Shown here: one piece after another, positions 47,190 to 60,387 of the stretch
Layout of the letters: every line of letters begins with the position of its first letter
Numbering within the stretch: the first letter of the stretch is position 1
Source of the DNA: Natronococcus amylolyticus DSM 10524
GTDB taxonomy: Archaea > Halobacteriota > Halobacteria > Halobacteriales > Natrialbaceae
Direction: 5' to 3'
NCBI RefSeq assembly: GCF_000337675.1
Contig: NZ_AOIB01000028.1
Location: forward strand, 148,140 to 212,139
DNA length: 64,000 bases
The notes under the pieces: model-generated
Told to the model about the DNA's origin: nothing
What the model saw: the letters and a program-made list of their open reading frames with translations, nothing else
The model's database searches: none
Position numbers and translations under genes: made by a program

Positions 47190-48380
47190 ATGGTAAGTCA
47201 TAACTCCCTTTCGGGTCGGCCAGAGGCATCGCCGGCTCGCTTCGGACTCCCCGGCGTCGGAATGACGAGGTTTACCGGGTCCGACGACCGATCGATCGCC
47301 GAGTTGCTGGAAACCGCTGCGGAGCGGGCACTCGACGACGCGGACGTCGAACCGGACGCCGTCGACTCGGTTCACGTCGGCAACATGGCCGCGGAAGCGT
47401 TCAACAACACCTCCGGACTGGCGAACGCGTTGACCGCTAGCCTCGGCCTCAGCCGGGCGTCCGCACGCCGGATCGAAAACACCAGCGCGACCGGCGCGAG
47501 CGCGGTGCTCGACGCGGTCGACACCGTTCGAGCAGGACGGGCCGAGGTCGCACTCGCCGTCGGCGGCGAGAAGATGTCCGTCGCCGAGACGTCGGTCGCG
47601 ACGGAGATCATCAGCCGGATCACGCACAGCCAGGAGTACGATCAGGGGATCACCCTCCCCTCGTTCGCGGGCCTCGCGGCTGCCCGGTACCTCGAGAGCT
47701 ACGACGCGACTCGACGCGATCTCGCACGGGTTGCGGTAAAGAACCACGCGAACGCCCGCCGAAACCCGTACGCGCAGTTCGAAAGCGACGTGACGGTCGC
47801 GGACGTCCTCGACTCGCCGAAGGTCGCGACGCCGCTTCGTCTGTACGACTGCTGCCCGACGACGGACGGAGCCGCCGCGGTGGTCGTCACGGCGGCGGAC
47901 GCGGACGTGTCGGTGACGGCCTGCGAGAGCGCCGTCGGCGTCCACGCCGTCGCGGATCGGGCCGATCCGTTGCGGATCGAGAGCGCCGCGGCCGCCGGAC
48001 GAGCCGCGTATGACGCGGCGGGGACGGATCCCGACGAGATCGATGTCGCGTGCATCCACGATGCCTTCACCATCCTCGAGTGGCTCGAGATGGAGGAACT
48101 GGGCCTCGCCGAGCGGGGCGAGGCGTGGCGACTAACGCGGGAGGGACGGACCGAGATCGACGGCGATGGGGACCTGACGGTCAACCCGGGTGGCGGGCTG
48201 AAAGCCCGGGGCCATCCGCTGGGCGCCACGGGAATCTCCCAGCTCGTCGAACTCGTCTGGCAGCTTCGAGGGGACGTGCCCAGCGACCGTGCGGTCGATT
48301 CGCCGCGGTACGGACTTGCGATCAACGTCGCCGGGTTCGGGAACAACAGCGTCTGTACGATCGTGGAGGCGAGCGGATGA
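47190..48380 (+). CDS. Thiolase-family protein with Ser at the nucleophile position
   Basis: 396 aa of the SCP-2-like archaeal thiolase group. Normal features are GVGMTRF near residue 24, AVGGEKMS, the CIHDAF motif near 289, and the C-terminal NPGGGLKARGHPLGATG with the catalytic His near 342. At the place of the nucleophilic Cys (C-A-S-G in family members) the sequence reads S-A-T-G, with Ser99. This suggests loss of classical thiolytic activity or altered chemistry. It overlaps the DUF35 gene by 4 nt (ATGA), forming the usual thiolase/DUF35 pair. First gene of the island, divergent from nothing but close to the IclR regulator. Confidence 0.82.
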   Translation: MVSHNSLSGRPEASPARFGLPGVGMTRFTGSDDRSIAELLETAAERALDDADVEPDAVDSVHVGNMAAEAFNNTSGLANALTASLGLSRASARRIENTSATGASAVLDAVDTVRAGRAEVALAVGGEKMSVAETSVATEIISRITHSQEYDQGITLPSFAGLAAARYLESYDATRRDLARVAVKNHANARRNPYAQFESDVTVADVLDSPKVATPLRLYDCCPTTDGAAAVVVTAADADVSVTACESAVGVHAVADRADPLRIESAAAAGRAAYDAAGTDPDEIDVACIHDAFTILEWLEMEELGLAERGEAWRLTREGRTEIDGDGDLTVNPGGGLKARGHPLGATGISQLVELVWQLRGDVPSDRAVDSPRYGLAINVAGFGNNSVCTIVEASG

Positions 48381-48724
48381 CGCGCGTCCTCGAGTGTCCG
48401 GACTGCGGTCGGCGAACCTTCTACGAGAAACGCCGCTGTCTCGACTGCGGCGCCGACGGACTGCGGCCTCGCGATTCGGGCGTCGGTATCGTGCAGGCGG
48501 TGACGGCGGTTCACGTCACGCCCGACGGCGTCAGCGCCCCGAATCGGCTCGGTCTCGCCTCCTTCGACGGCGATGCGAGTATCATCGCCCGGCTCGAGGA
48601 CGGTCTCGAGGCGGGCGACTCGGTCGTCCTCGAGACGCCGGACGGAGCGGGATCGCCCCCGCGGCTCGTTCCGGCCGAAACCGACCGGGATCGGGAGACA
48701 CCGACGAGTTCGGGCAAACAGTGA
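48377..48724 (+). CDS. DUF35 OB-fold/zinc-ribbon partner of the thiolase
   Basis: 115 aa. The N-terminal zinc ribbon CPDCGRRTFYEKRRCLDCG (Cys7, Cys10, Cys21, Cys24) is followed by an OB-fold (GVGIVQAVTAVHVTP, GLASFDGDASIIARLED). DUF35 proteins bridge thiolase and HMG-CoA-synthase-type enzymes and can bind CoA. It is translationally coupled to the thiolase. Confidence 0.85.
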   Translation: MTRVLECPDCGRRTFYEKRRCLDCGADGLRPRDSGVGIVQAVTAVHVTPDGVSAPNRLGLASFDGDASIIARLEDGLEAGDSVVLETPDGAGSPPRLVPAETDRDRETPTSSGKQ

Positions 48725-48740
48725 GACCGGTGACCGACGA

Positions 48741-49508
48741 TTATATAGAGTGAGCGATGTGGAGTTCGAGTTCGTTGACCGCGCCGAGCACCCGCTCCGG
48801 AAGCTCGTCGGTGAGCTGTGCTCCCTTGACGCGGTGGGCGGGTCCGGAGACGCTCAGCGCACCGATCACCTCGTCGTCGGCATCCGTCACCGCCGCGCCG
48901 ACCGCGTGGACTCCTTCCGTCGTTTCCTGCCTGTTGAAGGCGTACCCTCGCTCTCGGATCCGCTCGCACTCCTCCTCGAGTTCCGCGCGCGTCGTGATGG
49001 TGTTCTCGCTCACGCCCTGTAACCCGTGGGTCGCGACAATCTCGTCGACACGGTCCGCTGGCATGTTCGCGAGGATCGCCTTTCCCGCGGCGCTCGTGTG
49101 GAGCGGGCCGCGCTTTCCAATGTGGGCGCCGGTCTGCACCGCGCTCTGGCCGACCTCGGTGTACAGATAGACCCGCTCGCCGTGTTCCTCGACGATGAAC
49201 TGAGAGCGTTCTCCGGTTTCCGCCGCCAGCACGTCGACCTTCTGCTTGATCATCGGGTACGCGGTCGTCGTTCGCTGTGCGTGGCCGCCGACGGTGAGAA
49301 ACTGGAATCCGATCCGGTAGCGCCCGTCCGTACACACTACGTAGCTGTGCTCGCGGAGCGTAACGAGGTGACGATGCACGGTGCTCGGGGCGAGTCCGAG
49401 ATGCTCGGATAGCTCGTGGATCGTCGCCTCCCCCAGTTCTCGGAGGACATCGATGATCTGTATAGACGTCTCGGTCGTGCGCGCCCCCGATTTGGGTTTG
49501 TTTGCCAT
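48741..49508 (-). CDS. IclR-family transcriptional regulator
   Basis: 255 aa. The N-terminal wHTH (LRELGEATIHELSEHLGLAPSTVHRHLVTLREHSYV) precedes a C-terminal effector-binding GAF-like domain with the IclR signature (GKRGPLHTSAAGKAILANMP). It converges with thiolase/DUF35. IclR proteins usually govern catabolic operons, here probably the island genes. ATG 49508 follows a TATA box embedded in a palindrome. Confidence 0.88.
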   Translation of the reverse strand: MANKPKSGARTTETSIQIIDVLRELGEATIHELSEHLGLAPSTVHRHLVTLREHSYVVCTDGRYRIGFQFLTVGGHAQRTTTAYPMIKQKVDVLAAETGERSQFIVEEHGERVYLYTEVGQSAVQTGAHIGKRGPLHTSAAGKAILANMPADRVDEIVATHGLQGVSENTITTRAELEEECERIRERGYAFNRQETTEGVHAVGAAVTDADDEVIGALSVSGPAHRVKGAQLTDELPERVLGAVNELELHIAHSI

Positions 49509-50024
49509 ACTCGGTCCTGGGGACCCAGGCATTATAAATTATGCCACTCCTTGCGGAGACGGGCCTCCAGACCGGTCTCCCTCCAGATCCTACAGAACGG
49601 GATCAGCGACATTCGCACCGTGAATCGGGACTCCTGTTTCGGCCGTTTTCCGACAACAATCTCAATATATTATCATCCAAAACCGAGGCCGTCTCATGGA
49701 ATTACATTCGTACTTTCGTAATCATATCTGCGGGGCCAGCAGTCGGACGTGTGATGTGGCCTCATTCGTCACGTTCTGGTGTTCTTCGCGTACATCCCGG
49801 CCTCTCGGATGCTATATTGGCGGACTGATACCAAAATAACCGCTTTCCGAGCCTCGTACAACAGTCTCGATCCTTCTTTCGGCTTATCCGAATAACTGGG
49901 ACAGATTACGCCAGCATGCTCCGCTTGAGAGCGAACGCGACAGGGAATCGGTTAAGTAGATTCGACACGCTCCGTTATGCCATGCCAGGTTCGTCCTCCC
50001 GCTGGAAGGAAGTGGTGAACGGCG
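49509..50024. other. Intergenic control region between IclR and MFS genes
   Basis: 516 nt with no gene. Next to the iclR start lie a hairpin CCTGG-GGAC-CCAGG (49516-49529) and the operator palindrome listed separately. Beyond them the sequence is moderately AT-rich (AATATATTATCATCC at ~49670). No clear TATA box is placed before the MFS start; a GGAAGGA ribosome-binding site is present at about 50004-50010. Confidence 0.45.
49528..49545 (-). promoter_or_regulatory. Palindrome over the iclR TATA box, candidate autoregulatory operator
   Basis: GGCATTATAAATTATGCC has arms GGCAT/ATGCC and matches its own complement at 14 of 18 positions. Its centre is the TATA box ~25-35 nt before ATG 49508. Binding by a dimeric regulator such as IclR would block iclR transcription (inference). 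Confidence 0.55.
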
Positions 50025-51260
50025 ATGGATGAGAACGATCGCTCGATTACGGGGTTTACGATGCTCGCACACGGAATCTTTCATACCTACGAGCTGAGCA
50101 TCCCCATCTTCATCGTCATCTGGTTGGACGTCTTCGACGTCTCGCCGTTCGTCCTCGGCGTTGTCGTCAGTATCGGTTACGGCCTCATCGGCGTCGGTGC
50201 GATCCCGAGCGGCCTGCTGTCTGACACCTACGGCTCACGCCGGCTGATCGTCGCATCGGTGGTCGGGATGGGCGGCGGCTTCTTCCTCCTCGCGCTCGCG
50301 CCGAACGTCTACGTGTTGATGGTAGCCATCGTCATCTGGGGCGTCGCCGCGAGCGTCTACCACCCCGCCGGTCTGTCGCTGATCAGCCGCGGTGCGAAAA
50401 ACCGCGGTACGGTGTTCGCCTACCACGGTGTCGGCGGCAACATCGGGACCGCGTTCGGCCCGTTGTTGACCGCCTCGCTGCTCCTCTTTTTCGACTGGCG
50501 GCTCGTCGTCGTCGCGCTCACCGTCCCGGCCGTGGCCGTCGTCGCGTTCGGCTCGCTGATCGAGTTCAACGAGAACGCTGCGACCGCGGCCGACGGCGGA
50601 ACGGACGACACCGACGACGACGGGTCGTCGATGGACCTCCAGTCGATCGTCGACGACTCGAGGCTACTTCTCACGACCGGGTTCCTGCTCACGTTCGCCG
50701 CGATCATGATCTACGGGATCTACTACCGTGGCCTGCTTACGTTCCTGCCCGACATGATCGGAGGACTGCCGCAGTTCGGCACCTACGAAATCTTCGGCCA
50801 GGAGGCCGAGCCCGCACAGTACATCTACACGGGGATCCTGATGATCGGCATTCTGGGACAGTACGCCGGCGGCCGGGTCACCGACCACGTTCGGACGGAG
50901 TACGCGTTCTTCTCGACGCTGTTCGCTCTCGGCGTGCTCGCGTTCGTCTTCATCCCCTCCGTCGGCTGGGGGCTCGCCCCGTTCCTGTTCGTCTGTGCCG
51001 CGCTGGGGTTTTTCCTCTACGCGACGGCGCCGATCTACCAGGTGGTGATCGCCGAGTACGCGGCCGCCGACGTCCACGGCCTCTCCTACGGCTACGCCTA
51101 CCTCGGGATGTTCGGCTTCGGCGCGGCGGGTGCCGCACTCGCCGGCTCACTGCTCACCTACGCGAGCGAGACCGTGCTCCTCGGAACACTCGGTGTACTC
51201 GCGCTCGTGGGTGCCGGGATCGTGGTCACCCTGATCACGTTGTACGGTGAGGGCAGGTAA
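50025..51260 (+). CDS. MFS transporter
   Basis: 411-aa major facilitator, predicted 12 helices. The N-terminus (FTMLAHGIFHTYELSIPIFIVIWL) lacks the classical signature but has GLLSDTYGSRRLIVAS (motif A-like loop 2-3), and a long acidic central loop (TAADGGTDDTDDDGSSMD). The second half holds GRVTDHVRTEYAFFS. It may import the island's substrate or export an intermediate. It is followed by the CoA-transferase gene after 42 nt. Confidence 0.88.
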   Translation: MDENDRSITGFTMLAHGIFHTYELSIPIFIVIWLDVFDVSPFVLGVVVSIGYGLIGVGAIPSGLLSDTYGSRRLIVASVVGMGGGFFLLALAPNVYVLMVAIVIWGVAASVYHPAGLSLISRGAKNRGTVFAYHGVGGNIGTAFGPLLTASLLLFFDWRLVVVALTVPAVAVVAFGSLIEFNENAATAADGGTDDTDDDGSSMDLQSIVDDSRLLLTTGFLLTFAAIMIYGIYYRGLLTFLPDMIGGLPQFGTYEIFGQEAEPAQYIYTGILMIGILGQYAGGRVTDHVRTEYAFFSTLFALGVLAFVFIPSVGWGLAPFLFVCAALGFFLYATAPIYQVVIAEYAAADVHGLSYGYAYLGMFGFGAAGAALAGSLLTYASETVLLGTLGVLALVGAGIVVTLITLYGEGR

Positions 51261-51302: not shown

Positions 51303-52553
51303 ATGGTAGCCAGAGCTAGCCGTGGGATTCTCGACGACATCACCGTCGTCGATCTGACGACGTTCGTGACCGGCGGATTCGCGACGCTGATGCTTGCGAA
51401 CCAGGGGGCGGAAGTCATCAAGATCGAGCGGCCGGAGGTCGGCGACGACAGCAGACATTCGGGGCCGCCGTTCGTCGATATTTCCGACTACGAAGGTGAG
51501 GGACGGGCGGCGTCCGAACACGGCGAGTCGCCGTACTTCTGGACGGTCAACTACAACAAGAAGAGCGTCGAACTCAACCTCAAATCCGAGGAGGGGTACG
51601 AGATCTGTCGGGAGCTGATCGACGAGGCCGACGTTGTCGTCGAGAACTTCAGGCCGGGGACCGCAGAACGGCTCGGCCTCGGCTACGACGAGCTCTCCGA
51701 GGAGCACCCCGAACTCGTCTACTGTTCGATCTCCGCGTTCGGCGATTCGGGGCCCTGGAGCGATCGCCCCGGCTACGACCTGCTGATTCAGGGGATGAGC
51801 GGCATGATGAGCGTTACCGGTCCCGAGGGTGGTGACCCCGTCAAGGTCGGGCTTCCGCAGACCGATCTGATCACCGCGATGTGGTCCGCGTTCGGGATCG
51901 TCAACGCGCTCTACCGACGCGAGCGGACCGGCGAGGGCGAACGCGTCGAACTCGGGATGCTCGATGCGGCGCTCCCGTGGCTGACCAAACAGGCCGGGAA
52001 GGCGTTCGTCGGCGACGAGCCGACCAGGATGGGGACGAAGGATCCGGTGCTCGCACCCTATCAGAGCTATCCGACCGCCGACGGCTACCTCAACGTCGCC
52101 TGCGGAAATCAGAAGCTGTGGGAACAGTTCTGTGCGGAGATCGACCGCGAGGACCTCGCGTCGGATCTCCGCTTCGAGTCCAACGCCGACAGGGTAGCGA
52201 ACATGGACGCCCTCGAGGAGGAACTCGCCGAGACGCTCACCGAGCGCTCGACCGACGAGTGGGTCGAACGCCTCGCCGACGACGCCGGCCTGCCGGTTGG
52301 TCCCGTCTACAGCGTCGACGAGGCGCTGGACAACGAACAGGTCAACGCGCGCGGCGCGGTCGACAGTCTCTCCCACCCCGCCGCCGGCGAGATCCCGATC
52401 CTCGAACATCCGCTGAACTACGCCGAGTCCGAAAGTGGGTTCGACGAGGCACCGCCGCTGCTCGGCGAGGACACCGAGGACATCGTTCAGGCGCTGGGGT
52501 ATTCGGAGGCGGAGATCGAAGAGCTTCGCCGGAAGGGAGCGCTGTCAGGCTGA
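51303..52553 (+). CDS. CaiB/BaiF family III CoA-transferase
   Basis: 416-aa enzyme moving CoA between carboxylic acids. TTFVTGGFATLMLANQGAEVIKIERPEVGD and YNKKSVELNLKSEEG are family markers; the catalytic Asp lies in LGMLDAALPWL (near residue 220). The acidic segment SHSGPPFVDISDYEGEGRA is an insert relative to compact members. Probably activates the island's carboxylate with CoA from succinyl-, acetyl- or formyl-CoA; donor and acceptor cannot be read. It has its own TATA box. Confidence 0.9.
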   Translation: MVARASRGILDDITVVDLTTFVTGGFATLMLANQGAEVIKIERPEVGDDSRHSGPPFVDISDYEGEGRAASEHGESPYFWTVNYNKKSVELNLKSEEGYEICRELIDEADVVVENFRPGTAERLGLGYDELSEEHPELVYCSISAFGDSGPWSDRPGYDLLIQGMSGMMSVTGPEGGDPVKVGLPQTDLITAMWSAFGIVNALYRRERTGEGERVELGMLDAALPWLTKQAGKAFVGDEPTRMGTKDPVLAPYQSYPTADGYLNVACGNQKLWEQFCAEIDREDLASDLRFESNADRVANMDALEEELAETLTERSTDEWVERLADDAGLPVGPVYSVDEALDNEQVNARGAVDSLSHPAAGEIPILEHPLNYAESESGFDEAPPLLGEDTEDIVQALGYSEAEIEELRRKGALSG

Positions 52554-52761: not shown

Positions 52762-54372
52762 ATGGATGTCAATCAAGCGATCGCGCGCACCCTGAAAGAG
52801 GAAGGAGTAGAGTATCTGTTCGGGTTTCCGAGCAACCCACTCTTCGACACCGGTGCGGCCGAAGAGGAAGGGATTCGAACGATCATCACCAGGCAGGAAC
52901 GGACCGCCGTTCACATGGCCGACGCCGTCGGGCGACTGAGTTCCGGCGAGCGGGTCGGCGCGTTCGCGTGCCAGCACGGCCCCGGCACGGAGAACTCCTT
53001 CGGCGGCGTCGCCCAGGCCTACGGCGAGTCGGCGCCGATCGTCGCGATCCCCGCCGGCTACGACGAGGCCAAGACCGACGTCGATCCCAAGTTCAGCTCG
53101 CTGGTCAACTACCAGCACGTGAGCAAGTCCTGCGAGCAGCTGACGAACCCCGACGCCGTCGGCGAGACGATGCGCCGCGCGTTCAGCGCAGCCCGGAACG
53201 GTCGTCCGCGTCCGGCCGTCGTCGAGGTTCCGAAGGACGTCTTCTACACCGACCTCTCGGAGGACTTCGAGTATCAGCCGACGTCGTCGAACCGGTCCGG
53301 TCCCGACCCGGACGGCGTCGACGAGATCGCGGACGTCCTGCTCGAGGCCGAGAACCCCGTCATCTTCGCCGGCCAGGGCGTCCACTACGCCGAGGCGTGG
53401 GACGAGCTACGGGAGCTGGCCGAGACGCTCGAGGCGCCCGTCGCAACGAGCCTCAACGGCAAGAGTGCGTTCCCGGAGGACCACCCGCTGTCGCTGGGCG
53501 CCGCCAGCAAGAGCGAACCGGGACAGCTCGCACACTTCATGCGCGAGACCGACGTCCTCTTCGGCGTCGGCTGTAGCTTCACCGAGACCGCCTACGGCGT
53601 TACGGTCCCCGACGGACCGACGGTTATCCACTCGACGCTCGACTCGACGGACATCGACAAGGACGTCGAGTCCGACTACTCGCTGGTTGGCGACGCCAAG
53701 CTGACCCTCGATGCGCTGGTCGACTCCGTCGATGCACAGGTCGGCGGCTCCCGCGACCGCTTCGACGACGTCGTCAGCGAGATCGAGGACGCGCGCGAGG
53801 CGTGGCTCGACGAGTGGCGGCCGAAGCTCACATCCGACGAGACGCCGATCAACCCCTACCGCGTGATCCACGAGCTCACGGAGGTCCTCGACGCCGAGGA
53901 CACGATCATCACCCACGACGCCGGCAACCCGCGGGACTTCCTGGCGCCGTTCTGGGAGTCGACCGAGCCCCTGTCGTACATCGGCTGGGGGAAGACGACC
54001 CAGCTCGGCTACGGGCTCGGGCTCGCGCTGGGCGCGAAGCTGCTCCACCCCGACAAGCACTGCATCAACCTCATGGGCGACGGCGCGATCGGAATGACCG
54101 GGCTGGACTTCGAGACGGCTGCCCGCGAGGACATCCCGATCCTGACGATCCACCTGAACAACTACGAGATGGCCGCCTACGATACGCCCTTTTCCGGCGA
54201 CTTCGCCGACGTCGGCGAGGCGCTCGGCGGCTACGGCGAGCGCGTCGAGGATCCCGACGAGGTCGGACCGGCCATCGAACGTGCCATCGAACAGACCGAG
54301 TCCGGCACGCCCGCGCTGCTCGAGATCATCACCTCGAAGGAGACCGAGCTCTCGCGGCCGGATCTCGAGTAA
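52762..54372 (+). CDS. ThDP-dependent enzyme (acetolactate synthase/2-hydroxyacyl-CoA lyase superfamily)
   Basis: 536 aa with the three ThDP-enzyme domains. The Pyr domain has the activating Glu46 in TRQERTAVHMADA; the PP domain has GDGAIGMTGLDFETAAREDIPILTIHLNN-type metal/ThDP motif near residues 439-467. The family includes acetolactate synthase, oxalyl-CoA decarboxylase, 2-hydroxyacyl-CoA lyase and sulfoacetaldehyde acetyltransferase. Pairing with CoA-transferases makes a CoA-linked decarboxylase or lyase attractive, but no substrate residue is decisive. A TATA-like ATTTATGATA lies at about 52709-52718. Confidence 0.85.
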   Translation: MDVNQAIARTLKEEGVEYLFGFPSNPLFDTGAAEEEGIRTIITRQERTAVHMADAVGRLSSGERVGAFACQHGPGTENSFGGVAQAYGESAPIVAIPAGYDEAKTDVDPKFSSLVNYQHVSKSCEQLTNPDAVGETMRRAFSAARNGRPRPAVVEVPKDVFYTDLSEDFEYQPTSSNRSGPDPDGVDEIADVLLEAENPVIFAGQGVHYAEAWDELRELAETLEAPVATSLNGKSAFPEDHPLSLGAASKSEPGQLAHFMRETDVLFGVGCSFTETAYGVTVPDGPTVIHSTLDSTDIDKDVESDYSLVGDAKLTLDALVDSVDAQVGGSRDRFDDVVSEIEDAREAWLDEWRPKLTSDETPINPYRVIHELTEVLDAEDTIITHDAGNPRDFLAPFWESTEPLSYIGWGKTTQLGYGLGLALGAKLLHPDKHCINLMGDGAIGMTGLDFETAAREDIPILTIHLNNYEMAAYDTPFSGDFADVGEALGGYGERVEDPDEVGPAIERAIEQTESGTPALLEIITSKETELSRPDLE

Positions 54373-54444: not shown

Positions 54445-55641
54445 TCAGTCGCCGAACGCGCCGCCCTCGCTCCACTGCTCGAGGGTCGTCTGGTCGCTCG
54501 CGATCTCGTCGAACACCTCGTCGGTGTGCTCGCCGAGGCGCGGCGCGGGCGATCGGACGATGGCGTCGTGATCGGGGTAGTTGATCGGGTGGCCCGGCAG
54601 CAGGCACTCGCCCCAGTCGGGGTCCTCGTGGTCGACGACGAGGTTCCGGGCGCTCGTCTGCTCGTCCGCGACGACATCGGCCACGTCGTTGATCGGGCCG
54701 CAGGGGAAGTTCGCGGCCGTCAGCTGCTCGAGCCAGTGCTCGGTGGACTCTTGCTCGAGGGACGCCTGGATCAGTTCCGTCACGCGCTCGGCGTTGTCTT
54801 GGCGGTCGTCGTTCGTTGGATACTCCCGGAGCTCCTCCTCACCGATGAGATCGACGAAATCGTCCCAGCGGTCGTCGCTGGGGACGCCGGTGACGATGGC
54901 GCCGTCGGCGGTCTCGAAGCGCTGGTAGGGGACCAGTGTCTGGTGGGTCACGCCCTGGGGGCCGGGAACGGAGCCATCCATCGAGTACTCCGTGAGGTAC
55001 TCGTTGAGCAGGGTGACGATCGAGTCGAACAGGCCGACGTCGAACTTCCCGACGAACGAGTCGGACTCCTCGGTGCGGTCGCGCTCGTAGAGCCGCGCGA
55101 GGACGCCCATCGCGGCGAACATCCCCGTGGTGAGATCGCCGATCGCCTGGCCGACCTTGACGGGCTCGCCGCCCTCGGGGCCGGTGACGCTCATGATGCC
55201 GCCCTCGGCCTGAAGGATGAGGTCGAGTCCGGGCTGCTCTCGCTTTGGACCGGTCTCGCCGTACCCCTTGATGCTCGCGTAGACGATCCCGGGATTGCGT
55301 TCGCTGATCTCGTCGTAGCCGATGCCGAGCTTGTCGGTGACGCCGTAGCCGAAGTTCTCGACGAAGACGTCGGCGCTGGCGATCAGCTCACGGGCGGCCT
55401 CGGTTCCCGCATCGGTCTTGAGATCGAGGGTAACCGAGCGCTTGTTTCGGTTGTTCGCCATGAAGTACCCCGACTTGCCGTCGGGACCGATCCCCTGGGA
55501 TCGGGCCGGATCGCCGACGCCCGGCCGTTCGATCTTCACGACGTCGGCGCCCATGTCGGCGAGCAGCGCTCCGCAGAACGGCCCCGCGCGGTGACCGGTC
55601 ATCTCGACGACCGAGACGCCCGAAAGCGGTCCCCCGGTCAT
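54445..55641 (-). CDS. CaiB/BaiF family III CoA-transferase, second copy
   Basis: 398 aa. It has MTGHRAGPFCGALLADMGADVVKIERPGVGD and the NNRNKRSVTLDLKTDAG markers, with the catalytic Asp in VGLFDSIVTLL (near 205). Distinct from the 51303 copy (no SHSGPP insert). ATG 55641 overlaps the crotonase stop by 4 nt, so it is the second gene of the minus-strand operon crotonase-CoA-transferase. Converges with the ThDP gene. Confidence 0.9.
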   Translation of the reverse strand: MTGGPLSGVSVVEMTGHRAGPFCGALLADMGADVVKIERPGVGDPARSQGIGPDGKSGYFMANNRNKRSVTLDLKTDAGTEAARELIASADVFVENFGYGVTDKLGIGYDEISERNPGIVYASIKGYGETGPKREQPGLDLILQAEGGIMSVTGPEGGEPVKVGQAIGDLTTGMFAAMGVLARLYERDRTEESDSFVGKFDVGLFDSIVTLLNEYLTEYSMDGSVPGPQGVTHQTLVPYQRFETADGAIVTGVPSDDRWDDFVDLIGEEELREYPTNDDRQDNAERVTELIQASLEQESTEHWLEQLTAANFPCGPINDVADVVADEQTSARNLVVDHEDPDWGECLLPGHPINYPDHDAIVRSPAPRLGEHTDEVFDEIASDQTTLEQWSEGGAFGD

Positions 55642-56423
55642 TGGCCCTCGTTGAACTCGTCGACCAGCTCGCGGCGCTCGTCGGTGGCGAACTGCTCCCA
55701 CCAGATCTCGGCCTCCTGTTCTCTCGCTCCCTCGAGGCTTCCCGCACGTACCGCGCCGTTGATCGCGCGTTTGGAGTTCTTGACCGCCTCGCGTCCGGTG
55801 TCCTGGACCGCCTCGACGATCCCGTCGACGGTCTCGTCTAACTCCTCGCGCGGGACCGCGTGGTTGATCAGCCCGATCCGTTCGGCCTCGTCGGCGTCGA
55901 TCATCCCCGCGGTGTAGACGAGTTCCTTCGCCTTCGCCTCGCCCACGAGTTCGACGGCTCGCCAGGTCGATCCCCCCGTCGGAATCTGACCGATGTTCGC
56001 GGTCGGGACGCCGAACTTCGCGTCGTCGACGGCGATCCGGAGATCGCAGTACATCGCGAAGATCAGCCCGCCGCCGACGCAGTAGCCGTTGATCTTCGCG
56101 ATCACCGGCGCGTGGCAGTCGTAGGGCTTCTGGTACATCTCGTAGAACAGCTCCTGGCGGTCCCGCTGGAGCGGATCGTGCTCGTCGGCGGTTCCAGCGT
56201 ACTGGGAGATGTCCGCACCGGCGGAGAACGCGTCCTCACCCTCGCCGGTGATCACGACGACGTCGATGTCGCGGTTCAGCTGGATCTCGTCGAACGCGCG
56301 GCTGAGGTCGAGCATGACCTCGTTGTTGAGCGCGTTGTAGACCTCGGGGCGGTGAAACTCGATCGTCGCCACTCCGTCGTCGACGTCGAGGGTAATGCTT
56401 TCGTAGGCACTGTAGCTAACCAT
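55638..56423 (-). CDS. Enoyl-CoA hydratase/isomerase (crotonase) family protein
   Basis: 261-aa crotonase fold. Oxyanion-hole segments EDAFSAGADISQYAG and NGYCVGGGLIFAMYCDLRIA are intact. Of the two Glu used by enoyl-CoA hydratases, the site after FGVP reads T (FGVPTANIG for the usual FGxPE); the second Glu near AKELVYTAG is kept. This points to an isomerase, decarboxylase or thioesterase-type member rather than a standard hydratase. First gene of an operon with the CoA-transferase. Confidence 0.85.
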   Translation of the reverse strand: MVSYSAYESITLDVDDGVATIEFHRPEVYNALNNEVMLDLSRAFDEIQLNRDIDVVVITGEGEDAFSAGADISQYAGTADEHDPLQRDRQELFYEMYQKPYDCHAPVIAKINGYCVGGGLIFAMYCDLRIAVDDAKFGVPTANIGQIPTGGSTWRAVELVGEAKAKELVYTAGMIDADEAERIGLINHAVPREELDETVDGIVEAVQDTGREAVKNSKRAINGAVRAGSLEGAREQEAEIWWEQFATDERRELVDEFNEGQ

Positions 56424-57149: not shown

Positions 57150-58220
57150 ATGTCCGAAAAACCAACTCAACGACGTTTGACGGTGGAGGCAACGACCAGG
57201 CGAGGGTTCCTCGGGATCGCTGGTGCGGGTGCGGCGGTATCGATGGCTGGCTGTTTGCAGGACGACGACCCTGATGCCGGGGACGACGAGGATTGGGAAC
57301 CCAGCCAATCGATGCGGTTCATCATCCCGTACGACGAGGGCGGCGGCACCGACGTCTACGCGCGCGGGATCATCGAACCGCTCATCGACGCGATGGGCGA
57401 GGAGATCCAGATCGACAACGTGCCCGGCGGTGGCGGCCTGAACGGGTTCGGGGAACTGTACGGCTCCGAACCGGACGGGCATACGTTCGCGGGAAGTGCG
57501 ACCCCGCTCGAGGTGCCGCCACAGATGCTGGACGATCCCGGGTTCGACCAGCGTGATCTCGAGGGGATCGCGAACATCGGCCGCTCGACGTGGTGTCTGG
57601 TCGTCAACGAGGAGTACGAGGACGAGGTCGAGACGTTCGACGACGTTCGCGAGATGCACAACTCCGGCGAGTGGGACTCGATCGGCATCCAGGAGCCCGG
57701 GAGCCCCCAGGACATCATGACCCTGCTGGCGAAGTACGGCGACGAGTACGCCGACGAGTACGACTGGCAGTGGGAGGACCGGGTTCAGTACACCGGCACC
57801 GGCCCGATCGCGGAGGCGGTGACCTCCGGCGAGGTGCCCTGCGGAATCGGAACCGACGCGGGGACCGAACCCGACGTCTCCGCGGGCGGTATCTACCCGG
57901 TGGCCACGTTCTTCAGCGAGGGATCCGAAGTCTACCCCGACATTCCGTCGGTAACCGACGAGGGATACCCGGAGATGGACTTCATCGCCGGTGTGACCCG
58001 TGGCCTGTACGCGCCACCCGAGACGTCGGAGGGGACGATCGAGGAACTGACCGCACGAGTCGAGGAGGCGACCGAGGACGAGCGCTACGAGGAGTGGTCC
58101 GACGAGACCGGGAATCCGATCTTCTACGAGGGTCCCGAGGAGGCGAACGCGGCGATCGACGACGCGTTCGAGGAGATGGAGGAGCTGGAAGTCATTGAGC
58201 TGATCGAAGAGCACGCGTAA
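57150..58220 (+). CDS. tctC: TctC-like tricarboxylate-binding lipoprotein (Tat exported)
   Basis: 356 aa. TTRRGFLGIAGAGAAVSMAGC combines a twin-arginine signal with lipobox MAGC near residue 35. The rest is a Bug/TctC-type two-lobed binding protein: MRFIIPYDEGGGTDVYARGII, DNVPGGGGLNGFGELY, EGIANIGRSTWCLVV. It captures a carboxylate outside the cell for the TctBA channel. The downstream spacing to tctB is 22 nt. Confidence 0.88.
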   Translation: MSEKPTQRRLTVEATTRRGFLGIAGAGAAVSMAGCLQDDDPDAGDDEDWEPSQSMRFIIPYDEGGGTDVYARGIIEPLIDAMGEEIQIDNVPGGGGLNGFGELYGSEPDGHTFAGSATPLEVPPQMLDDPGFDQRDLEGIANIGRSTWCLVVNEEYEDEVETFDDVREMHNSGEWDSIGIQEPGSPQDIMTLLAKYGDEYADEYDWQWEDRVQYTGTGPIAEAVTSGEVPCGIGTDAGTEPDVSAGGIYPVATFFSEGSEVYPDIPSVTDEGYPEMDFIAGVTRGLYAPPETSEGTIEELTARVEEATEDERYEEWSDETGNPIFYEGPEEANAAIDDAFEEMEELEVIELIEEHA

Positions 58221-58242
58221 CTACCCCCGCCGCTATTATATT

Positions 58243-58887
58243 ATGAGCAACTCAGAGTCATTCAAGAGGAAAGTAACGGCCGAGCGGGTGATGCTCGTTG
58301 TGTTCCTCGTCGTGAGTGCGGTGTTCATTCTCGAGCCGGTGATCGAGAGCTACCCGGACGACGCTCGCGTGTTTCCCCAGCTAACCGCATCAGCCGTCTT
58401 TATCGGTTCGTTGCTCCTATTGCTGCAGAACTACCTTCCTGGCCCTCTCCAGAAGTTCGTCGCCGAGAGTGTCAGCATCACCACCTCAGACTCGTCGGAG
58501 GTGATCGATCAGGTCGAGGAGGACGATGAACCGCTCGAGGAGGTCGATGAGCCGGAGGAGGAGTACAAAAAGGAGACACTCGGTGCGAAGTACGGATACG
58601 AAGTGAACGAGACGGTGTTTATGGTTTCGACGGCGGTTCTGTACTTCGTCGTCGGATGGGCCGCCGGTTTCCTCTTCATTACACCGCTGTACATCCTCGG
58701 GTACACCCTCTGGTTCCGGGTCAATCCGGTCGTCAGTGTCGGACTGGCTATTGGGGGGACCGCCGTCATCTACCTGTTCATGACGTATCTCGTGTTACCG
58801 TTCGACCAGGGGCACGTCTTCGACTTCAGTCCACTCGTGCCGATGCTGTTCGACGGCGCACCGATACTACTGAGAGGTGGACTGTAG
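58243..58887 (+). CDS. tctB: TctB-like small membrane subunit
   Basis: 214 aa, about four helices with a long acidic loop (residues ~85-115, QVEEDDEPLEEVDEPEEEYKKE) between helices 2 and 3. Features fit the small TctB subunit of TTT transporters. Its TAG stop is directly followed by the tctA ATG (0 nt). Confidence 0.85.
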   Translation: MSNSESFKRKVTAERVMLVVFLVVSAVFILEPVIESYPDDARVFPQLTASAVFIGSLLLLLQNYLPGPLQKFVAESVSITTSDSSEVIDQVEEDDEPLEEVDEPEEEYKKETLGAKYGYEVNETVFMVSTAVLYFVVGWAAGFLFITPLYILGYTLWFRVNPVVSVGLAIGGTAVIYLFMTYLVLPFDQGHVFDFSPLVPMLFDGAPILLRGGL

Positions 58888-60387
58888 ATGGCGGTCGACG
58901 CCTTCTTCGAGGGCTTATCGATCGCAACGACGCCCGAGATGCTCGTCTGGCTGACACTCGGGTTGCTCCTCGGGATCGTTCTCGGCGCCCTCCCGGGTAT
59001 CGGTTCGCCGGTCGGGATGGCGATCGTGTTGCCACTGACGCTGCCCCTCGACGCAACGGCGGCGATCATCCTGCTGGTCGCGATCTACAGCGGTGCGATG
59101 TTCGGCGGCTCGATCTCCGCGATCCTGATCAACGCGCCCGGGACCGAGTCGGCCGCAGCGACGACACTCGACGGCTATCCGATGTCACAGAACGGGTTGG
59201 CGAAGAACGCACTCGCCATCGCGACGACGGCCTCGGCGCTGAACGGCTTTCTCGCCGCGATCGCGCTGATCATCCTCTCGCCGGTCCTGATCGAGGTCGT
59301 GTTGGCGTTCGGCTCACCGGAGTACTTCCTGCTGGCGATCCTCGGGATCTCCCTGATCACGATCGTCACCCAGGGGTCGATCGTCAAGGGACTGGTCGCC
59401 GGCGCGCTCGGATTCATGATCTCGACCATCGGGACCGCGATCCTCAGTCCGCGTCCGCGGTACACCTTCGGCCAGTTCGGACTCTACGAGGGGATCGACT
59501 TCGTCGCGGCGCTGATCGGGATGTTCGCGTTCGCCGAGATGATGAAACTCGCCGCCCGCAAACAGATTTCGGAGGACGACGTCGAGATCGCCGGCAGCGT
59601 TCGAGACGGGATTACGACGATATTCAAGTATCCGATGACAACCCTCAAATCGGGCCTGATCGGGATGGGGATCGGGATGGTTCCCGGCTCCGGAGCGACG
59701 ACGTCGACGTTCGTCGCCTACGCAGAGGAGGCTCGCTCCTCCACCAAGGACGGGAGATTCGGCGAAGGTGATCCTCGCGGGGTCATCGCACCGGAGGCCG
59801 CGAACAATCCAACCGTGAGCGGATCGCTCATTCCGACGCTGTCGTTCGGGATCCCGGGCAGCGGATCGACTGCGGTCCTGCTCGGCGGTATCCTCATGCA
59901 CGGACTCCAGCCGGGTCCAGTCCTCTTCGGCGAACAGCTCCAGATCACGTACGCGCTGTTCATCTCGCTGTTCCTCGGTAACGTCCTCATCCTTGCCGTC
60001 GGATTGACGCTGATCCCGTACGCGAGCAAGATCACCGAGCTCGACACCACGCTGATCATTCCGATGGTCGTCGTGCTCTCGTACGCCGGCGCGTACACCC
60101 TGAACCAGAACTGGTGGGACGTCGGCGCCGTCATCGTGCTCGGCGTTCTGGGCTTCTACATGGTCCGGAACAACTACTCGATCATCGCGTTCGTGCTCGG
60201 GATCGTGCTCGGTCCGATCGCCGAGGAGAACTTCTTCCGGTCGCTGCAGATCTCGGGCGGCGAGTACACGATCTTCTTCGATCCGATCAACCGGCCGCTG
60301 TCGTTCCTGCTGACGCTTGCCATCTTCCTGATCCTATTCGGTCCCTTCCTGAAGGGACGGGTCAAGCGGCTCGTCAGCAGGAACTGA
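58888..60387 (+). CDS. tctA: TctA-like large membrane subunit of TTT transporter
   Basis: 499 aa, about 12 helices. TctA signatures: LGALPGIGSPVGMAIVLPLTLPLD, GAMFGGSISAILINAPGT and a second related half with GMVPGSGATTSTFVAYAEEARSS. It forms the transport channel with TctB. The substrate class is citrate-like, but TTT systems carry many carboxylates. Confidence 0.9.
   Translation: MAVDAFFEGLSIATTPEMLVWLTLGLLLGIVLGALPGIGSPVGMAIVLPLTLPLDATAAIILLVAIYSGAMFGGSISAILINAPGTESAAATTLDGYPMSQNGLAKNALAIATTASALNGFLAAIALIILSPVLIEVVLAFGSPEYFLLAILGISLITIVTQGSIVKGLVAGALGFMISTIGTAILSPRPRYTFGQFGLYEGIDFVAALIGMFAFAEMMKLAARKQISEDDVEIAGSVRDGITTIFKYPMTTLKSGLIGMGIGMVPGSGATTSTFVAYAEEARSSTKDGRFGEGDPRGVIAPEAANNPTVSGSLIPTLSFGIPGSGSTAVLLGGILMHGLQPGPVLFGEQLQITYALFISLFLGNVLILAVGLTLIPYASKITELDTTLIIPMVVVLSYAGAYTLNQNWWDVGAVIVLGVLGFYMVRNNYSIIAFVLGIVLGPIAEENFFRSLQISGGEYTIFFDPINRPLSFLLTLAIFLILFGPFLKGRVKRLVSRN

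Follow-up and report, generated by a model that had tools for sequence, protein, structure and literature searches.

The thiolase-fold protein encoded at positions 47190–48380 (plus strand) of the window, by which we mean the whole 64,000-nucleotide stretch of Natronococcus amylolyticus DSM 10524 DNA that was analyzed, is best explained as an intact enzyme from an ancient, DUF35-coupled branch of Cys-less thiolases, where it is related to BktB and PhaA and belongs to a clade of its own. The reading frame opens with the ATG at 47190 and runs through 396 codons to a stop at 48378–48380, and its translation is that of an SCP2/DUF35-type subunit with the Pfam domains Thiolase_N and Thiolase_C_1; the top NCBIfam model, PRK06064, scored 375 bits, under its cut-off of 420. 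A sequence-only reading had proposed that the nucleophilic Cys of this protein is replaced by Ser, and this proved correct. The residues around the site are R-I-E-N97-T98-S99-A100-T101-G102-A103 (codons 97–103 span 47478–47498), and pairwise alignments with solved structures place Ser99 (AGC, 47484–47486, plus strand) exactly where 7yvy, 6esq and 6hsj have their nucleophilic Cys; the multiple alignment likewise puts Ser99 in the nucleophile column. That reading overlooked, however, a second lost Cys. The counterpart of the SCP2 HDCF motif is C288-I-H290-D291-A292-F293 (48051–48068, plus strand), in which Ala292 stands in place of the second of the two catalytic Cys (HDAF, as in the rest of its clade), leaving the window thiolase without either catalytic cysteine. 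Of the canonical Cys-His-Cys set of SCP2-type thiolases, the Cys of CASG and the Cys of HDCF are thus absent and the His of GHP is present: the GHPLGATG motif (residues 341–348, 48210–48233, plus strand), described earlier as intact, is indeed so, and its catalytic His342 is invariant.

The DUF35 partner had also been rightly reported as retained. A ChsH2-type zinc-ribbon OB-fold protein of 115 aa is encoded at 48377–48724 (plus strand; Pfam zf-ChsH2, E = 2.9e-4, slightly under the gathering score), and its ATG at 48377 overlaps the thiolase stop codon. The protein keeps the CxxC...CxxC zinc ribbon, and its orthologs adjoin the thiolase in most orthologous loci. The AlphaFold model of the window thiolase had a pLDDT of 92.4, and its best Foldseek matches were 6et9, 6esq, 4yzo and 7yvy, with structures of the Ltp2/Sal kind lower in the list (6ok1 at rank 28, 9myr at rank 31). 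The dN/dS of the thiolase against its nearest relatives was ~0.07–0.19, indicating purifying selection. The earlier account of the pair holds to the extent that both genes are intact and the thiolase is under selection.

Whether the orthologs share the Ser had been posed as a check, and 36 of the 37 distinct haloarchaeal orthologs sampled do, the remaining one having Asn (codons AGC 27, AGT 9, AAC 1). Orthologs of at least 58% identity were present in 28 of the 125 genomes of the host family, all 28 with Ser, and in 6 of the 9 genomes within the host genus, while matches at E ≤ 1e-90 were found in 121 of the 125 family genomes. Since close orthologs in independent genomes carry the identical codon, Ser99 is genuine, and a sequencing error at 47484–47486, named beforehand as one way in which the replacement could be spurious, is ruled out. 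The other way, a misalignment with the true nucleophile Cys elsewhere, is ruled out for the Cys-less branch, whose members have no conserved Cys in common at any other position. Nor is the Ser a rare oddity: same-genome paralogs with 46–48% identity to the window thiolase have it as well (QTSSSGG), as do 34 of 34 distinct sequences sampled from the BktB-like haloarchaeal clade, in which 17 codons are AGY and 17 are TCN; the use of both codon families implies that Ser is actively maintained there. The Asn-bearing ortholog belongs to Halalkalicoccus sp. FCH27 (L057:9944-11152, AAC), where no CaiB gene was found nearby and the gene after that for DUF35 encodes a cytochrome P450.

To place the protein, a tree was built from 100 archaeal and bacterial sequences, sampled by peptide patterns that included HD[AMC]F, so that other variants may be missed, and rerun after the motif columns and three long rows had been taken out. 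In the rerun, all non-Cys sequences fell on one side of a single branch, with a support of 100/99. There, Ser, Pro, Thr or Asn stands in place of the nucleophile, and the residue following HD is Ala or Met, with one Pro, whereas 38 of the 42 Cys-type sequences have HDCF. The invariant residues of the non-Cys branch include H290, D291, E302, G336, H342 and Q351, with N332 nearly so. Two Asp-type sequences fell with the Cys side of the tree; Asp at the nucleophile position was observed in the AACT-like proteins of loci L090 and L105 (EAADASG, ENADASG), with HDSY/HDSF. The Pro-type sequences (NGPASG, HDAF) form a large thiolase/DUF35 family of bacteria and Asgard archaea (L118–L157, e.g. L119:6001-7149 and L136:6001-7164), found in Chloroflexi, Clostridia, Spirochaetes, Acidimicrobiia, Lokiarchaeota and others. 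The window clade is a clade of its own (support 100/100) outside the BktB/PhaA clade, and the branch that unites it with the BktB-like and Sulfolobus-type sequences is only moderately supported (94/78). Its changes are E288C, S334G and D250G in 20 of 20 representatives and H255A in 19 of 20. Position 288 (48051–48053), two residues ahead of His290, is Glu in nearly all sampled relatives and Cys in all 20 representatives, making Cys288 a clade-specific candidate for an unusual role.

The closest characterized relatives are BktB and PhaA of Haloferax mediterranei, which reviews of Hou et al. 2013 describe as β-ketothiolases that pair a thiolase subunit, catalytic through Ser-His-His, with an OB-fold subunit that is likewise essential (PMC7137286, PMC9049629); deletion of both bktB and phaA is reported to abolish PHA in this species (PMC6631277). 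A thiolase-DUF35 pair of H. mediterranei beside SagB and orc1 genes (L059; motifs QTSSSGG and HDMF) is, judging from gene order, probably HFX_6004-6003, that is, bktB. Like BktB and PhaA, the window thiolase has Ser at the nucleophile position, keeps the His residues and is adjacent to a small DUF35/OB-fold partner gene, and it is ~45–48% identical to the BktB-like clade. However, it differs from them as follows: First, its clade is separate with full support. Second, it has HDAF where they have HDMF, NPGGG where they have NTSGG, and E288C, and its clade further differs from BktB at S334G, D250G and H255A. Third, it is linked to CaiB, IclR and catabolic genes. Because BktB and PhaA carry Ser and work genetically as β-ketothiolases, a Ser at this site is by itself no sign of a different reaction, and the earlier suggestion that a Ser would in itself change the reaction finds no support in that form. 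Among solved structures, ST0096 of Sulfolobus tokodaii (4yzo) is the best PDB sequence match; it shares the fold and also has Ser (NTSGSGG) but has an HDMA motif and sits on a long branch. The archaeal acetoacetyl-CoA thiolase of the HMG-CoA synthase/DUF35 complex (6esq, 6et9) and the P. furiosus thiolase (7yvy) share the fold (TM-score ~0.9) and the two His, and the former shares the DUF35 partnership too, but both keep the Cys nucleophile and lie on the opposite side of the tree split.

Downstream of the pair, the window contains genes for an IclR-family regulator (48741–49532, minus strand; nearest models BhcR and PcaR/PcaU, all under cut-off), an MFS transporter (50025–51260, plus strand; Pfam), the class III CoA-transferase CaiB1 (51303–52553, plus strand; Pfam), a thiamine-diphosphate enzyme (52762–54372, plus strand; NCBIfam PRK06154, 853 bits against a cut-off of 607), a second class III CoA-transferase, CaiB2 (54445–55701, minus strand; NCBIfam), an enoyl-CoA hydratase/isomerase (55638–56423, minus strand; NCBIfam), and a TctC, TctB and TctA tripartite tricarboxylate-type transporter (57150–60387, plus strand; Pfam). 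The set from the MFS transporter to Tct is much alike in nine other loci, and the MFS transporter and the PRK06154 gene are syntenic with the thiolase in Natronococcus-type loci. Across relatives, CaiB usually accompanies the thiolase/DUF35 pair: of 38 orthologous loci, 31 contain a CaiB gene, which in most of those outside Natronococcus lies immediately upstream, against 5 of 15 BktB-like control loci, most of which were drawn from genomes also holding orthologous loci. An IclR gene lies near 15 of the 38 orthologs.

We tentatively favor, at somewhat below an even chance, a catabolic retro-Claisen (thiolytic) role for the window pair in cleaving a CaiB-activated 3-oxoacyl-CoA, where we infer the substrate, the direction and the reaction. 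CaiB1 would activate a carboxylic acid as its CoA thioester, and the thiolase/DUF35 pair would then split the 3-oxoacyl-CoA so formed into acetyl-CoA, or another short acyl-CoA, and a shortened acyl-CoA, with His290 and His342 supplying the oxyanion hole and the acid-base chemistry. This proposal is based on the kinship with BktB/PhaA and on the two His that are kept, and the fold, closest to acetoacetyl-CoA thiolase and Ser-type ST0096, supports it. A class III CoA-transferase also works with a thiolase and DUF35 pair in benzylsuccinate degradation (BbsEF/BbsAB); the BbsB model matches the window thiolase at 165 bits, but the identity in the fold search is just 27%, and no Bbs-pathway dehydrogenase genes were found in the window cluster. 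Against thiolysis, Pro occupies the nucleophile position in a neighboring group, so the chemistry shared by the branch may not be thiolysis, and in PhlC, a related thiolase-fold acylase, Cys88Ser abolishes activity (PMC6392133). As a special case of thiolytic cleavage, Ser99 could itself be the covalent nucleophile, forming an O-acyl-serine as inferred for BktB/PhaA. The conservation of Ser99 in the window clade argues for a role of this residue, and the genetically functional Ser-type relatives, together with the two codon families by which the BktB-like clade retains its Ser, are in line with an acyl-serine. Nevertheless, the loss of PhlC activity tells against it as well, and the Pro of the sister group and the Asn of the L057 ortholog, along with Thr in relatives, argue that the branch as a whole does not depend on a nucleophile here; we consider an acyl-serine unlikely.

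The main rival, which we also regard as unlikely, is that the pair is a decarboxylase of malonyl-CoA or substituted malonyl-CoA. CaiB would transfer CoA to malonate, which could stem from the oxidative degradation of pyrimidines, for instance, and the two His would stabilize the enolate as acetyl-CoA and CO2 are released in a KSQ-like manner. In KSQ domains, the nucleophile is classically replaced by Gln and the His pair stays; in the window thiolase the nucleophile is replaced and the His pair kept, although it is Ser rather than Gln that takes the nucleophile's place. Losing both Cys while retaining the His pair is what one would expect of an enzyme that decarboxylates without transferring an acyl group, and the occurrence of Pro and Asn at the nucleophile site fits it too. 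Furthermore, the nucleobase setting of some neighborhoods fits this reading. An NCS2/SLC23 nucleobase permease gene is present in 14 of the 38 orthologous loci and in none of the 15 BktB-like controls (p = 0.005, a value that overstates independence because most of the 14 permease loci come from related strains); in three of the permease loci, L060, L188 and L189, the genes are arranged differently, and some also carry hydantoinase-, carbamoylase-, MoeA- or urease-type genes. The Pro-type thiolases often lie among purine-catabolism genes, and bacterial loci of this type independently carry FdrA, AllG, AllH, xanthine-dehydrogenase-type subunits, an NCS2 (Xan_ur) permease and PucR, none of which was found near 27 Cys-type loci with flanks of varying length. 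A literature search for FdrA or pyrimidine catabolism linked with thiolases gave nothing relevant. The Cys-lacking TbSLP does show slow malonyl-CoA decarboxylase activity (PMC12329534). However, no malonate-specific gene was identified, the window neighborhood, with its thiamine-diphosphate enzyme and Tct transporter, has no nucleobase genes, and BktB and PhaA of the same branch perform Claisen condensation.

A retro-aldolase of the Ltp2/Sal kind, in which a 3-hydroxyacyl-CoA from the neighboring hydratase would be cleaved by the thiolase fold with DUF35, appears quite improbable. Such enzymes exist: the steroid aldolases Ltp2-ChsH2 and Sal-Shy are, like the window protein, DUF35-bound thiolase folds without the Cys nucleophile, and the window cluster does include an enoyl-CoA hydratase gene. 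Their Tyr-based YDHF/YDCY active site (motif: PMC12329534) is absent from the window thiolase, however, in which the essential Tyr is His290 and the Cys/His is Ala292, and both its fold and its sequence are nearer to acetoacetyl-CoA thiolase than to Ltp2/Sal. An identity as a steroid aldolase fails this Tyr motif test. Finally, a degenerate, non-catalytic thiolase or an annotation or sequencing artefact, which the absence of both catalytic Cys might suggest, is very improbable given the purifying selection, the identical state in independent genomes and the conserved operon and His residues.

The replacement of Cys by Ser is a trait of the lineage that earlier publications describe. What is new here is a separate clade with fixed E288C and S334G that is usually CaiB-linked and has nucleobase-catabolism genes nearby in some lineages. 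In a literature search whose scope lay mostly outside subscription journals, we found no paper on nucleophile-less thiolases with DUF35, and within that scope the window clade, its operon and the Pro-bearing Cys-less branch appear undescribed. A wider proposal, that the whole Cys-less branch consists of DUF35-coupled acyl-CoA lyases or decarboxylases working without an acyl-enzyme, with an undescribed step of nucleobase catabolism as a main role and the haloarchaeal PHA ketothiolases as a specialized offshoot, is possible though rather doubtful. If the thiolase fold does carry out Claisen-type chemistry without a catalytic Cys, the textbook requirement for a Cys acyl-enzyme would not be general in the family, and many proteins annotated as 'acetyl-CoA acetyltransferase' may be misnamed. 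For both haloarchaea and bacteria, the neighborhoods suggest a concrete connection with nucleobase breakdown that can be tested, and the Ser, Pro, Thr and Asn found at one position among relatives amount to a natural mutagenesis series.

Two further gene arrangements were observed beside thiolase genes of this branch. Directly upstream of most Pro-type thiolases lies a gene of ~230 aa, which we call U230 (L136:5296-5985, L119:5291-5983); it had no Pfam, NCBIfam or convincing PDB match and, by eye only, resembles a GNAT acetyltransferase. In L190 (11913-14183) and L192 (10791-13061), which belong to another sub-lineage of the window clade, an FAA-hydrolase-family gene and a PRK08204-type amidohydrolase gene adjoin the thiolase/DUF35 pair.
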